A stretch of DNA of 64,000 nucleotides from Clostridia bacterium (GTDB lineage Bacteria; Bacillota; Clostridia; Oscillospirales; Acutalibacteraceae), in the NCBI GenBank assembly GCA_017415025.1, contig JAFQJH010000017.1:1-64000 (forward strand), given 5' to 3'. The translations under genes were made by a program, and so were the position numbers. Of the stretch, positions 30,017-36,062 are shown one piece after another. Numbering within the stretch: position 1 is the stretch's first letter; every line of letters starts with the position of its first letter. Under the pieces are notes generated by a model, which had not been told where the DNA came from, did not search any database, and worked only from the letters and a program-made list of their open reading frames with translations.

Positions 30017-32782
30017 TTATTTTGAGCATGAAATTTTTGTCACTCCGATAAACGCCGCCGAAACAAGCACCTGAAGCAAAATAACAAACACCGCGGGAAG
30101 ATCGGCAACAACGTTGAGCACGGAAAGAATGAGCACAATCGCAAAGCTCATCAGTATTCCGCCGAGCATCATCGTGTTCGCAATTTTGAAAACATTGCGA
30201 AGCGTTGCGGCGGTGCAAAGGCTTCTCGCAAAGGTGTATGTTGTTCCGTCGTGGATTGCGATTGCCCTTGAATTAACCTTCGGGCGCGACTTGTATTTCT
30301 TGAAAACTCTGCCTGCCGCAGAATTGAGAATTCTAATGTTATCAAGACGCATATCATAGCATTCCGAAATCATTCTGTCCGTAACGTTCGGGTCGCAGTT
30401 TCTTACGAGAACCGTAACGCCGCTGTCGCGCAGCTTTTTAAGATACGGAATAAGCTTCTTGTTCGGCGCATAGTCAACAACCATCATCGCCGCAAGCTTG
30501 TGCGCAATCGCAAGATAGATAACCTCGTGACCCGAAATAAGATATTTATCCTCATCAATGCTTTCGGGAACGTCGATATTGTGATTGAGCATCATCGTCC
30601 TGTTGCCGAGGATGACCTTCTGATTGTTTATCCAGCCCGAAACACCGAGTCTTTCCTCATAGCTGAAGGATTTGACGGTCGGAAGAATATCTCGGCGGTT
30701 GACAACCATCTGGTCAAAAACTCCCATCAGCGGGCCGCCCGAACGGATAACCATTGCCGCGGCATAGAGCATCGCATCGTCTACGCGGACATTTTTAAAA
30801 TCCTTGAAGCCGTGCATTACGCACATATTCTGGTCAAACAAATCCTTGCTGTCGAGGATAATTGCATTCGTTCGGCAAAGCTCGCTTACCGCCTCCTGAC
30901 AGGAAATCATACCGCCCGTCTTGTTGAACTTCTTATTGACCCAACGAAGCGGAAGCTGAACAAGCAAAGCCGCGTAAGCAGGCATAGCGAGGGAAAACGT
31001 TACTGTAAAAGCAGCAAAGCCGACCGCAAAGTGACGGTTGACCGCCCACGCAATAATCATATTGACAAGGCTGAGTACCGCGATAATAAGCGCGATAAAT
31101 CGCATATTCTTATCCGTTGACGTCTCACTTGTGCAAAGCTCAATGAGATGTGACGGAAAACGTGTTTTGCCTGAATAGCGGATTCGCGGACTTGATGAGC
31201 GGACGTTTTTGCCGAGCTCGGTCGCATCCTTATCATCCGTAATGCCCTCAATGCTGTAAAGCTTATCCTTATTAGTGCCCGTGCAAAGCTCGAGTGCATC
31301 CGCCGTTCTGCAGAACGTGATGTAGGAATTGAGCTCACTCATAAGAAGAAGACCGACACCCGCACCCGCAAACACACTGACAATATTCTTCTTGAAGAAA
31401 TACAGCACAAGCATCAGCAAGGTCTGCACAAAGCAGAGCACGGATGCAACGGAAACGGCTGAATTTATGTTAAACTTTTTCTTTTTTAACTGTTCGACAG
31501 AACCTGCAATCATCTGATTGCTCGTAATCAGTGAAGCTCCGATAACAATGAGATTTGAGAAAATCGTCAGGAATTTATCACCGCCGATTGTCGTTACCGA
31601 TGCCGCCATAATACTGACAGCCAGCGCACAGAAAAGCAACACGGACTGAATTATTACACGGTGAAAGCTCTTTTTCTTCTGCAAAAGAAGATATCTGCGG
31701 ACTCTTCGCGCATCCTTCACCTGTGAATATTCAACACCCACAAATTCGGGCTCTTCAACACGGCGCGGACGCTCCTCGTGGGTGTCGAACAGGTCGCCGA
31801 GCTTTTCCTTTTCGCCGTCAACACCGTAGGGGTCGTTTTCATTCTCATCGCCGAAAAGCACAAAGCTGTCAATTTTAGCCTTCCTTCTCTTGAAAAGCTC
31901 CTTTTCAGCCTCGCTCTCCTCGATTTTTTCAGGCTTATCCTCGCTCGGAATATCCGAAAATCCGGGCATTGCAAGCTGACCGCTTTCCTCCTCCTGACGG
32001 ATTTTTGAATTAAACTCGTCACTCGGTTCGGCTTTACCCGCCTCTTCCTCAAGCGAAATTATGGTCGGTGCACCTTCAAGGTCGGAATCCTCACTGGCAA
32101 CACCCTTCTTTATTACCATTCCCGGTTTTTCGAGGTAAACGTGCTTGGTTTTGCCCGCTTCCTCTTCCTCGAGAAAATCATCATCAATCTCATCGCTGAC
32201 GGGCTCGGCGATTCTGATATCCTCATCACCGTCGGCAACCTCGAAATCATCATCGTCAAAATCGTCGTCCTCGTCAAGAAAATACCTTTCCTCGTTATTG
32301 CCGTCGCCGCTTTTAAGGTTGCTGATGAACGATTTACCCTTTGAAACCAATCCCGACATAAAGGACGAAGCCTTACCTGTTACGGATTTTAATGATGCCG
32401 CACAATCCACGCTCTTCTGCGACTTCGCTTCATCATTCATTATTGACTTTATGCGGTCATCGGGAGTATGCACGTTTTCTTCGGCAATATCTGTCTTTTC
32501 GATAGAAAACGCAACGGTCGCCTGTGTCGGCACAGGCTCTTCCTCTTCTTCAATAACGATACTTTCAAAGGACTCCTCCGCCGTATAAATGCTTTCGGGC
32601 ACTTCCTCGGCATTTTCATTCTTCATCTTATTCGCAATTCCGAGCAAACGGTCGATATCCTCGTTTGTCCAGATTTTTGCGGGCTCGCCGTTTTCGTCAA
32701 GACCTTCCTGACGGCGTTTTTCGCGTATATCCTCAATCAGAGCCAGAAGCTCCTCTCTGTTGATTTCAGACAAGGTTTTCAC
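30017..32782 (-). CDS. Degenerate P-type ATPase-like membrane protein
   Basis: A 921-residue protein. Residues 1-375 are acidic and low-complexity (DDDDFEVADGDED, many Glu-rich stretches), probably cytoplasmic and disordered. From about 380 the layout is that of a P1B-like P-type ATPase: paired helices, an actuator-like loop, a helix pair containing SLAMPAYAALLV in place of the CPx motif, a large cytoplasmic loop, and two final helices. The catalytic motifs are ruined. DKTGT is DSKDL at 644-648 (Asp kept), TGDN is NCDPN near 795-799, and GDGxND is missing. The N-domain strand LGVSGWINNQKVILGNR persists. I infer a pumping-dead pseudoenzyme, perhaps a sensor or scaffold. Its start overlaps the rlmB stop by four bases. 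Confidence 0.7.
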   Translation of the reverse strand: MKTLSEINREELLALIEDIREKRRQEGLDENGEPAKIWTNEDIDRLLGIANKMKNENAEEVPESIYTAEESFESIVIEEEEEPVPTQATVAFSIEKTDIAEENVHTPDDRIKSIMNDEAKSQKSVDCAASLKSVTGKASSFMSGLVSKGKSFISNLKSGDGNNEERYFLDEDDDFDDDDFEVADGDEDIRIAEPVSDEIDDDFLEEEEAGKTKHVYLEKPGMVIKKGVASEDSDLEGAPTIISLEEEAGKAEPSDEFNSKIRQEEESGQLAMPGFSDIPSEDKPEKIEESEAEKELFKRRKAKIDSFVLFGDENENDPYGVDGEKEKLGDLFDTHEERPRRVEEPEFVGVEYSQVKDARRVRRYLLLQKKKSFHRVIIQSVLLFCALAVSIMAASVTTIGGDKFLTIFSNLIVIGASLITSNQMIAGSVEQLKKKKFNINSAVSVASVLCFVQTLLMLVLYFFKKNIVSVFAGAGVGLLLMSELNSYITFCRTADALELCTGTNKDKLYSIEGITDDKDATELGKNVRSSSPRIRYSGKTRFPSHLIELCTSETSTDKNMRFIALIIAVLSLVNMIIAWAVNRHFAVGFAAFTVTFSLAMPAYAALLVQLPLRWVNKKFNKTGGMISCQEAVSELCRTNAIILDSKDLFDQNMCVMHGFKDFKNVRVDDAMLYAAAMVIRSGGPLMGVFDQMVVNRRDILPTVKSFSYEERLGVSGWINNQKVILGNRTMMLNHNIDVPESIDEDKYLISGHEVIYLAIAHKLAAMMVVDYAPNKKLIPYLKKLRDSGVTVLVRNCDPNVTDRMISECYDMRLDNIRILNSAAGRVFKKYKSRPKVNSRAIAIHDGTTYTFARSLCTAATLRNVFKIANTMMLGGILMSFAIVLILSVLNVVADLPAVFVILLQVLVSAAFIGVTKISCSK

Positions 32783-33549
32783 CCCTTTGCTTTAATTCCT
32801 GCTCTCTGCCTTGCGACCTCGTACATCAGCACACCTGCCGCAACGGAAGCGTTGAGCGAATTTATCCTGCCCTTCATAGGCATTGAAACAATGAAATCGC
32901 ATTTTTCGCGGACAAGACGGCTGACACCTCTGCCCTCCGAGCCGATAACAAGACCGACCGCACCGTCGTAATCCACGCTGCACCAATTCTCGCCGTCCAT
33001 ATCGGCGGCATAGAACCAAACTCCGCGCTCCTTGAGCTCGTCAATCGTCTGTGCAATATTCGCAACACGTGCAACGGGGACGTATTCCACCGCACCCGCA
33101 CTCGCCTTGCCCACAACGTAGCTCAGAGAAGCATTCCTGCGCTTCGGAATAATAACACCGTGAGCGCCCGTAGCCTCTGCAGTACGAAGCACCGCACCGA
33201 GATTATGCGGGTCTTCAAGCTCGTCACATATAATAACGAAAGGCTTTTCGCCGCGCTCCTCGGCAAGAGCGAAAATATCCTCCACGCTCGAATATTCGTG
33301 TGATGCCGCATAAGCCGCAACACCCTGATGCACCGCGCCGCCGCACATAAGGTCAAGCTTTTTGCGGTCAACCTCCTTGATAACAACACCCTTGTCACGG
33401 CACTCCGCAATAATTCTGCCGATTGAGCCGTTACGCTCACCGCGCGAAACGAGCAGAGTGTCAATAGCTCTACCGCTTCGAAGAGCCTCGCTGACGGCAT
33501 TTCTGCCGATTATCAAATCTTCTCTGGGAGAAGTCATTTCCTTTTCCAT
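32779..33549 (-). CDS. rlmB: 23S rRNA (guanosine-2'-O)-methyltransferase, RlmB type
   Basis: A 256-residue SPOUT methyltransferase, equivalent to the enzyme modifying G2251 of 23S rRNA. The N-terminal RNA-binding domain reads IIGRNAVSEALRSG, then CGGAVHQGVAAY. The SAM knot has DELEDPHNLGAVLRTAEA, IGSEGRGVSRLV and IPMK-like MPMKGRINSLNASVAAGVLMYE. I choose the ATG at 33549 (GGTGA six bases upstream) over an in-frame TTG at 33567. It is translationally coupled to the P-type-ATPase-like gene. Confidence 0.92.
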   Translation of the reverse strand: MEKEMTSPREDLIIGRNAVSEALRSGRAIDTLLVSRGERNGSIGRIIAECRDKGVVIKEVDRKKLDLMCGGAVHQGVAAYAASHEYSSVEDIFALAEERGEKPFVIICDELEDPHNLGAVLRTAEATGAHGVIIPKRRNASLSYVVGKASAGAVEYVPVARVANIAQTIDELKERGVWFYAADMDGENWCSVDYDGAVGLVIGSEGRGVSRLVREKCDFIVSMPMKGRINSLNASVAAGVLMYEVARQRAGIKAKG

Positions 33550-33585
33550 AATTTTCACCAATCTCAAAAAATATTAAATCAATAT

Positions 33586-33615
33586 ATTATATCACGATAA
33601 TACAGTAAATTACAA
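33586..33615 (-). promoter_or_regulatory. Promoter of rlmB
   Basis: Minus-strand TTGTAA (33610-33615), an 18-bp spacer, and TATAAT (33586-33591) preceded by TGA, an extended -10 box. Confidence 0.6.
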
Positions 33616-33734: not shown

Positions 33735-36062
33735 ATGGAAATAACAAAAATAAAGGAAACTCTGGTTAAAACAAGTGCACATCTGCAAAAAAAAGCCGAG
33801 CTTACACCTGTGATAAAAAGCATCACCGCGTTTATCGGCTCGTTTTTGCTGATGAATCCCTTTGTTTCGGGGATTTTTTCTCCGTTTGCAGTTTCGCTGA
33901 CCGCCTGCTCGGGACTTGCCGACTCCTTCTGGTCAGGCGCAGGTGCGATTATCGGTGCTTTTTTCTTTTTCGACGGCACGGATTGTGTCCGCTACTGCGC
34001 CGCTGTGCTTCTTTGTCTTTTGTGTAAAGGGCTTTACCTTCGCTACATAACCCGCGAGCTTCACGACACGGCGATGCTTCTCAACTCCTTCGCGAGCCTT
34101 TTTCTGACAGGGACGGCAATCGTCTGCGCGACAGGCTTTGATTTTGAAACGGTTTTATGCGTTTTTTACGAGAGTATACTTTGCTGTGCAGGTACGTATC
34201 TTTTCAAGAAATCGGGCGAATTGATATGGGGCAAAAAGGATTTTTCGCGTTTCACCACTCTCGACATAATAACCGTTCTCTCGACCTGTGCAATTCTTCT
34301 TATGCCCTTTTATAAATATAAGCTGTTCGCTTTTTCTCCCGTGACGATGCTGTTTTCCGCCTGTATTCTGCTTTTTGCAAGACTGCGGAATTTGAGCGGA
34401 GGCGCTCTTTGCGGGATTTGTCTCGGCGCAGTCGCAGGTCTGAGCTCACAGGTAGGCTTCATCAGCGTGGGCTACGCCCTCGGCGGACTTCTCGGCGGTG
34501 AGCTTGCACGTAAAGGCAAGGTGTGGTGCATCGCAGGATTTCTTGCGCCGATTACAATCTGTGCCTTTGCCGACGGCACTCTCGTTTCGTATATGGCGAT
34601 TTTCGAGAGCATTGTCGCAAGTGCGGTTTTCTTTGCCGTGCCCGACAGATTTTTTGACTCTCTCTGCGCAAAAACAAACGCACCCGTCACAACCTGCATA
34701 CAAAGCGAAAACGGCCGTCTTCTCGCACACAGGTTAAGTGAGGCTTCGGGCGCAATAAAGGAGGTCTCGACCTGCGTTGACACCGTGCAAAATACACTTA
34801 ATCCGCTGACACAGACTCAGCTTAACGAGGTGCTGAGAAATGCGTGGTGCAAGGTGTGCAACGAATGCGACCTCAGGGATAGCTGCAGACCGGAAATCAA
34901 AAATCCGACAGACGGCGATATTGAAAAAATCGTACAGACCTTACAAAGCCGTGCCGAGCTTGACGAAACGCGCTTTCCGAAGGGCTTTTACTCCGCGTGC
35001 TATTCCTTTACGGAGATGCGCACAGAGCTTTATAACCGCTACCTCTCGTTTGTCGCATCCCTCGGTGCTCAGGGAAAGGTCAGCCAGATTCAGGGGCTTA
35101 TGTGTGACCAGTTCCGAAGTATGGCAGAAATTCTGAACGAGCTCGCCTGCGACTTTGACGAACAGCTCAACACAGATACTGACCTTGCCGAATGTTGCAC
35201 CTACGAGGCTCATCAGGCAGGACTTAATGTTCTGAAATGCGATTGCAGCCTTGACAAATTCGGCAGGACGACACTCACTCTGGACATCACCGAGCCTCGC
35301 TCCGATTTTGATATAACTCAATTCACCAAAAATCTTTCAACCGTGACGGGAACAAAGCTTGACCTCCCCGACCTCACCGAAAGCGAAAGCGACGGCGGAT
35401 GCACGCTCGTTTTTAAGCAGAAAATGGATTTCCGCGTTTCAATCGGAGCTGTCAGCCGTCCTACCGATGACGAGGACATCTGCGGCGACTACTATCGCAG
35501 CTTCCGCGACAACGACGGCAGATACATTATTATATTAAGCGACGGAATGGGCACGGGAAGCCGCGCAGCTGTCGATTCGGCAATGGCGGCGGAGCTTTTT
35601 TCAAAGCTCGTCAAATCAGGTCTCGGCTTCGATTCCGCTCTCCGAATTGCAAACTCCGCCCTGCTTGTCAAAAGCTCTGACGAATCCCTCGCAACGCTCG
35701 ATGTTGTATGCCTCGACCTTTACACGGGCAAAACCGATTTTATGAAGGCGGGCGCGGCGGCAACCTTCGTCCGCCACAAGGACAGCGTCGCACAGCTTGA
35801 ACAGGCAAGTCTGCCGATAGGCATCCTGCGTGATATCAGCTTTTCAAAGGCAACGGCACAGCTTAATAAGGGTGACGTTATTCTTATGGTTTCCGACGGT
35901 ATCCTCGGCGACTGCAATAACTGGATTCAGCACGAGCTTAAACAATGGAGCACTGAAAAATCCCCCGATGACCTTGCGCATTTTATTCTCAACTCCGCCT
36001 GTGAAAGAAAAATGGGCAAGCACCTCGACGATATGACCGTGATTGCGGTTTATGTGGAGTAA
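33735..36062 (+). CDS. spoIIE: Stage II sporulation protein E (serine phosphatase)
   Basis: A 775-residue integral membrane phosphatase that dephosphorylates SpoIIAA to release sigma-F in the forespore. The N-terminal ~300 residues hold about ten membrane helices. A central regulatory region (about 320-560) includes the conserved cysteines of CNECDLRDSC. The C-terminal PP2C domain keeps its metal ligands: DICGDYYRSF, LSDGMGTGSRAA, LDVVCLDLYTG, LMVSDGIL and a final DDMTVIAV. Length and domains are normal for SpoIIE, so the organism is a spore former or a recent descendant of one. GAAAGGAAA precedes the ATG. Confidence 0.95.
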   Translation: MEITKIKETLVKTSAHLQKKAELTPVIKSITAFIGSFLLMNPFVSGIFSPFAVSLTACSGLADSFWSGAGAIIGAFFFFDGTDCVRYCAAVLLCLLCKGLYLRYITRELHDTAMLLNSFASLFLTGTAIVCATGFDFETVLCVFYESILCCAGTYLFKKSGELIWGKKDFSRFTTLDIITVLSTCAILLMPFYKYKLFAFSPVTMLFSACILLFARLRNLSGGALCGICLGAVAGLSSQVGFISVGYALGGLLGGELARKGKVWCIAGFLAPITICAFADGTLVSYMAIFESIVASAVFFAVPDRFFDSLCAKTNAPVTTCIQSENGRLLAHRLSEASGAIKEVSTCVDTVQNTLNPLTQTQLNEVLRNAWCKVCNECDLRDSCRPEIKNPTDGDIEKIVQTLQSRAELDETRFPKGFYSACYSFTEMRTELYNRYLSFVASLGAQGKVSQIQGLMCDQFRSMAEILNELACDFDEQLNTDTDLAECCTYEAHQAGLNVLKCDCSLDKFGRTTLTLDITEPRSDFDITQFTKNLSTVTGTKLDLPDLTESESDGGCTLVFKQKMDFRVSIGAVSRPTDDEDICGDYYRSFRDNDGRYIIILSDGMGTGSRAAVDSAMAAELFSKLVKSGLGFDSALRIANSALLVKSSDESLATLDVVCLDLYTGKTDFMKAGAAATFVRHKDSVAQLEQASLPIGILRDISFSKATAQLNKGDVILMVSDGILGDCNNWIQHELKQWSTEKSPDDLAHFILNSACERKMGKHLDDMTVIAVYVE

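Follow-up and report, generated by a model that had tools for sequence, protein, structure and literature searches.

The window analysed here, a stretch of 64,000 nucleotides from a Clostridia bacterium, encodes a protein of 921 residues that almost certainly belongs to an order-wide family of pseudo-ATPases derived from P1B (CopA-like) ATPases. We have coined the label PSA for this family, of which the window copy is one member. Judging from sequence comparisons, we lean towards reading PSA as a membrane scaffold or receptor that does not transport, found throughout the order and co-expressed with the rRNA methyltransferase RlmB. The features of the gene, its protein and its upstream partner are as follows.

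30017..32782 (-): PSA gene, GTG start, encoding a predicted 921-residue P1B-derived pseudo-ATPase
31667..32782 (-): N-terminal tail, residues 1–372, acidic and less conserved (from charge, dN/dS and variable length)
32636..32677 (-): short tail motif KIWTNEDIDRLLGI, residues 36–49, the own-genus form of FSLDDILxE
31493..31678 (-): predicted helices MA and MB, residues 369–430 (family-mean hydrophobic peaks 376–392 and 404–420)
31319..31468 (-): predicted helices M1 and M2, residues 439–488 (peaks 443–459 and 468–484)
31115..31318 (-): actuator region, shrunken and with the TGE loop lost, residues 489–556
30944..31114 (-): predicted helices M3 and M4, residues 557–613 (Pro601 and Pro611 kept, CPx cysteines lost)
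30836..30853 (-): DSKDLF in place of DKTGTL, residues 644–649
30602..30661 (-): N-domain core, residues 708–727 (G713 and G726 in 58 of 58 members)
30386..30400 (-): NCDPN in place of TGDN, residues 795–799
30026..30196 (-): predicted helices M5 and M6, residues 863–919 (peaks 873–889 and 898–914)
32779..33567 (-): rlmB, TrmH-family rRNA methyltransferase, upstream partner overlapping PSA
33586..33615 (-): promoter-like site upstream of rlmB (consensus match only)

The frame is open over all 921 codons with no internal stop, in agreement with the original prediction of a long and undamaged gene. A Pfam search with the window protein gave no family up to an E value of 10 and no HMA domain. The NCBIfam CopA model matched residues 570–806 with a score that falls far short of the model's own cut-off (E value of 1.2e-9), the closest curated model thereby being that of a copper exporter, and a search of the PDB gave Legionella CopA (PDB code 3rfu) with an E value of 2.7e-8. 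A family profile (A2) of 58 rows, comprising the window and 57 of 80 fetched loci, matched 3rfu with an E value of 9e-40; the score was carried by the M3–M4–P–N stretch, with only 13 bits from MA–M2 and nothing from M5–M6. Comparison of the family profile with an alignment (A3) of 15 intact P1B ATPases containing DKTGT and CPC, using hhalign, gave a probability of 100 and an E value of 4.6e-40 over 565 columns extending from MA to M6 (13% identity), and helices M1 and M2 were aligned with those of P1B in this profile–profile comparison. The expectation that P1B-like topology and domain order had been kept was thus borne out. At an E value of 1e-3 or better, the CopA model was matched by 48 of the 58 members and the heavy-metal ATPase model by 41, while Pfam (E value of 0.01 or better) recognized PF00702 in five members and PF00122 in one.

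Family-mean hydropathy over the 58 members displays eight peaks of 1.58 or above with P1B spacing, indicating eight helices including MA and MB, a count taken from hydropathy only. Five weaker peaks (1.20–1.42) are also present, one of which (753–769) lies inside the head, and the window protein by itself has fewer separate hydrophobic segments than the family mean. AlphaFold run from three sequences gave a mean pLDDT of 36 for residues 345–921 and 31 for the head.

P-type ATPases are textbook ion pumps in which DKTGT serves phosphorylation, TGE dephosphorylation, the HP histidine adenine binding and CPx metal binding. PSA shares with Legionella CopA (3rfu) the layout of the M, P and N domains, the prolines of M4 and the conserved glycines of the N domain, but differs from it in the absence of DKTGT, TGE, GDGxND and the HP histidine, in the nearly universal loss of the CPx cysteines, in the remaking of TGDN as xxDPN and in the addition of the long tail. 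DKTGT was found by regular expression in none of the 58 members, nor was it found in the PSA of 79 fetched loci, which upholds the proposal that the protein is catalytically dead. The individual substitutions described for the window were likewise recovered: DSKDL and NCDPN are present, GDGxND is gone and CPx is replaced, M4 reading MPA at residues 600–602. The suggestion that Asp644 might be conserved fared less well, since the phospho-Asp position is D in only 26 of 58 members and otherwise S, T, R, E, N, K or another residue. The TGE loop is deleted in the profile alignment (the pattern occurs in 2/58 members), and the distance between the M2 and M3 anchors is about 74 residues compared with about 136 in intact ATPases. 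The GDGxND stretch is also deleted (pattern in 1/58), and the histidine of SEHPL, which binds the adenine of ATP, is found in 0/58. An aligned cysteine occurs at position 600 in four members and at position 602 in one, with a loose [CST]P[CHS] pattern in 6/58. An HDG sequence at residues 844–846 was considered as a relic of GDGxND and dropped, because the profile alignment deletes the GDGxND stretch and places HDG after it. Loss of the motifs for phosphorylation, dephosphorylation and the binding of Mg, adenine and metal means, from established P-type chemistry, that no transport cycle is to be expected; PSA should have neither an ATP cycle nor a copper path.

Other positions are kept or have become newly fixed. 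The M4 prolines are retained (P601 in 48/58, P611 in 42/58), position 647 is D or E in 51/58 and F649 is present in 48/58, as are D797 (56/58), N799 (48/58) and Y771 (56/58); G713 and G726 are invariant. Position 907 is W in 41/58 members and V in the window. Many of these positions fall within the N domain or the loops that once formed the active site, which looks repurposed instead of decaying.

Of 98 relatives, all within one order of Clostridia, 91 yielded a PSA homologue. A search with the window protein gave matches in 90 of the 98, the G091 match being a canonical, intact ATPase; for the remaining 89 the best match in the fetched loci lacks DKTGT, with the exception of G007, in which the contig ends at the site (L018). 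A profile search added G074 and G093, bringing the total to 91. PSA was not found in G022, G050 and G058, which belong to the same family as the window genome, or in G063, G083, G085 and G091 (55, 77, 90 and 76% complete, respectively). With G379, there are four same-family genomes without PSA (92–99% complete), and PSA is therefore not indispensable. In a sample of the class, 14 of 15 order genomes matched over the full length with 384 bits or more, and some order genomes are inside the profile by construction; of the nine outside it, eight match and G379 does not. None of the 278 class genomes from other orders gave a full-length match, their scores reaching at most 147 bits, over the head region in the rows listed, and the best 16 of these matches, when fetched, all carried DKTGT. 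In a phylum sample, 3/3 order genomes matched (all three in the profile) and 0/246 others did so over the full length (reported to 1e-30; best other score 136 bits), at least six of the 246 also being in the class sample. These absences apply to full-length relatives only, at first-pass search depth, and the counts within the order include loci of one family that are not independent and many incomplete genomes. The original prediction had allowed that close homologues with intact DKTGT might reveal a merely decaying copy; none was found, the intact ATPases encountered (L113, for example) being distant. As far as titles and the opening lines of abstracts in open PubMed Central tell, no report of a bacterial P-type pseudo-ATPase or of a P-type ATPase tied to rlmB was found; the nearest papers, on a fungal lipid flippase, P5A-ATPases and mouse Atp11b with gut flora, are off-subject.

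The PSA frames are open in the fetched loci, and in G041, except for L084 (G081) and L110 (G070). These two are single PSA copies with an internal stop or a split frame, as if gene loss were under way or the assembly faulty.

In the window the start of PSA overlaps by 4 nt the end of an upstream gene which we take from its sequence to be rlmB; the genes downstream of PSA are, presumably and on the same basis, infC, rpmI and rplT. The site upstream of rlmB is one of 12 promoter-like consensus sites in the stretch, compared with 4.9 expected. Clustering of the neighbours in 80 loci (the window and L034–L112) gave an RlmB-type methyltransferase in 64, a cluster that includes a second methyltransferase gene in some loci, and no other cluster above nine; the other neighbours shuffle between loci. 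In a direct search of 79 loci, two of which are truncated immediately upstream where the contig stops, rlmB was directly upstream of PSA in 74 of the 77 testable loci, a stronger linkage than could be foreseen from the window. In 73 of the 77 it is on the same strand with its stop −246 to +144 nt from the PSA start, measured to the start of the open frame rather than to a called start codon; the 74th locus, L084, is linked through a separate N-terminal piece of its broken PSA gene. The exceptions are L051 and L075, in which about 4.2 kb separate the two genes, and L112, in which no rlmB lies within 5 kb upstream.

The spoIIE neighbourhood, which had also been put forward as possibly conserved, is not general: the gene is near PSA in nine of 80 loci (the window, seven loci of the same genus and L058). 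In the window it occupies 33735–36062 on the (+) strand, divergent from the rlmB–PSA pair, and the arrangement is alike in most loci of the genus. A sporulation role for PSA was considered and rejected, as profile matches to SpoIIE and SpoIVA do not track the presence of PSA. PSA occurs without a SpoIVA match in G032, G039, G084, G086 and G097, of which G032, G086 and G097 have some match to the SpoIIE model, and SpoIVA occurs without PSA in G050 and G058; no SpoIVA match was found in the window's own assembly (84% complete). Replacement of Rae1/YacP was also discarded: NYN_YacP is present in only 18 of 98 relatives and says nothing about PSA function. In these 18, the domain is always inside a frame of 780–1229 residues and never forms a small stand-alone gene.

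Selection was assessed by Nei–Gojobori dN/dS in nine chosen, non-independent pairs among eleven own-genus copies, in which dS frequently exceeds 1 and becomes infinite in four instances (three for domains and one for the whole gene). In 9/9 pairs the P/N head has the smallest proportion of nonsynonymous differences (pN). The dN/dS of the head is 0.019–0.052 in eight pairs and 0.108 for L005–L004; of the eight pairs for which the domains can be compared, seven have their lowest value in the head. Where defined, the values are 0.055–0.113 for the membrane and actuator part, 0.077–0.177 for the tail and 0.064–0.116 for the whole gene, which agrees with the earlier view that the gene is being maintained. 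These codon comparisons show PSA to be under purifying selection, strongest in the dead head, despite the lost catalytic residues; a gene under such strong selection most likely does a job other than pumping.

The acidic N-terminal region, originally estimated at about 375 residues, measures 373 in the window, with a net charge of −50 and 27% D/E. Over 89 rows the tail ranges from 28 residues (L099; 29 in L108) to 1077, the two still shorter rows being cut copies, and 76 of the 85 tails of 80 residues or more carry net negative charge. A position-weight search identified a shared short motif whose score exceeds the 99th percentile of shuffled sequences in 50 of these 85 rows, and in 48 in a leave-one-out check, although genome G002 is counted twice, the own-genus rows are alike and the weights derive from the same data. 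Its forms include FSLDDILAEF in several families, WSMDEIDALL in the window's family and KIWTNEDIDRLLGI in the window itself. Four of the 782 other genes in the loci also pass the motif search; the best-scoring of them is the detached start of PSA in L084. When a 20-column model of the motif was applied to 12 genomes, it matched PSA in nine, all in the training rows, and not in the other three; outside PSA it gave a single match with an E value below 1e-3, to another P1B-like protein (in G094), which carries NKTGT. Because the same motif sits on another disabled pump, albeit in one case, it hints that the tail and the dead core may work together.

This second pseudo-P1B protein is encoded at L231:1–1581 (-), which is the same gene as L240 (G094:C9:39843–41423), adjacent to a gene for class II fructose-bisphosphate aldolase. 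It resembles PSA in the N-terminal motif and in the absence by regular expression of DKTGT, TGE, CPx and GDGxND, but retains NKTGT (Asp to Asn), SDHPL and TGDN. It was not found in the other 97 relatives, the next best match having 31% identity. The window's own genome contains a single PF00122 match, L001 (G000:C26), a canonical ATPase with DKTGT and without CPC.

Among 28 rlmB loci of other orders, the profile found PSA behind rlmB in none and an intact copA in one (L183), where copA denotes an ATPase with CPC that we take to be copper-type. In the small order to which L183 belongs, copA lies directly behind rlmB in five of 14 genomes with readable context (L186, L187 and L217–L219, family f40). 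The f40 gene resembles PSA in being a P1B-ATPase gene directly behind rlmB, but differs in that DKTGT, TGE, CPC and GDGxND are intact in all five loci. Descent of PSA in place from such an rlmB-linked copA is an attractive possibility that neither of two trees decides. In the ATPase tree, the PSA rows come together as a single clade (support 100/100) with a long stem, not nested with f40 copA, the tree containing the 12 of 58 PSA rows that score best to intact ATPases and its long branches being flagged; in the RlmB tree, f40 groups with L181 of a third lineage (93/82) rather than with the order of the window genome, the deep forks being weak.

The reading of PSA as a scaffold or receptor, towards which we incline, draws on the profile match over the whole core, the loss of motifs throughout the family and the presence of the gene across the order, together with the slow-changing head, the residues conserved in the N domain and where the active site used to be, the rlmB pairing and the tail motif. 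The long, mostly acidic tail would extend into the cytoplasm, where its N-terminal motif would dock a partner; the head may use its rebuilt pocket to bind a second ligand or partner and hold the complex at the membrane, and co-expression with RlmB would tie the level of PSA to ribosome production and growth. Against this stand the 35 of 85 tail rows in which the motif is missing and the nine of 85 tails that are not negative, and rlmB adjacency could be a regulatory habit rather than a sign of shared function. Alternatively, a nucleotide, an ion or another small ligand might bind in the rebuilt pocket (D/E647, D797, N799 and Y771), and PSA might signal the presence of this ligand through the membrane helices or the tail. 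The location of the most conserved residues in the old active-site loops and N domain would suit such a sensor, as would the polar residues retained in the membrane helices (H/Q453 in 43/58, Q904 in 35/58), but the missing adenine-binding histidine and the deleted GDGxND stretch do not, and we regard it as unlikely. A working partnership with RlmB or with ribosome maturation, in which PSA would serve as a membrane recruiter of RlmB or late 50S particles, is suggested by the persistence of rlmB directly upstream while other neighbours shuffle and by the 4 nt overlap; it appears doubtful, given that an RlmB match is present in 57/57 genomes of other orders and that the class sample gave no PSA beyond the order, and given the three loci in which the genes are apart or rlmB is not nearby.

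A passive channel or carrier reusing the P1B membrane path without ATP would account for the preserved membrane layout and the two M4 prolines; we think this very unlikely, as the CPx cysteines are lost in nearly all members, the actuator part has shrunk and the slowest-changing part is the head rather than the membrane part. Pseudoenzymes often regulate active relatives, and intact P1B-type ATPases with DKTGT do occur in several genomes of the order (L113, L146–L149 and L151), yet a role as regulatory subunit of an intact P-type ATPase has still smaller prospects, the one PF00122 match in the window's own genome (84% complete) being without CPC. Hardly any credence is left for a decaying pseudogene, to which the lost catalytic motifs and the broken or split frames in G081 and G070 might point, in view of the open frames in the other fetched loci and dN/dS values well below 1 within the genus.

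A more far-reaching form of the scaffold or receptor reading, which we offer as speculation with little expectation that it holds in full, is that a P-type ATPase fold was turned, at the root of the order, into a membrane receptor for ribosome maturation or growth control, with the tail docking a cytoplasmic factor, the pocket of the head reading a ligand and the rlmB–PSA operon coupling both to 23S rRNA modification. As the nearest curated model describes a copper exporter, PSA-type genes would also become candidates for re-annotation. For these Clostridia, PSA would represent a near-core gene for which the rlmB pair, the tail motif and the fixed residue set provide handles, and a lineage selected across an order without pump chemistry would show that the P-type fold is able to take on scaffold or receptor duties.
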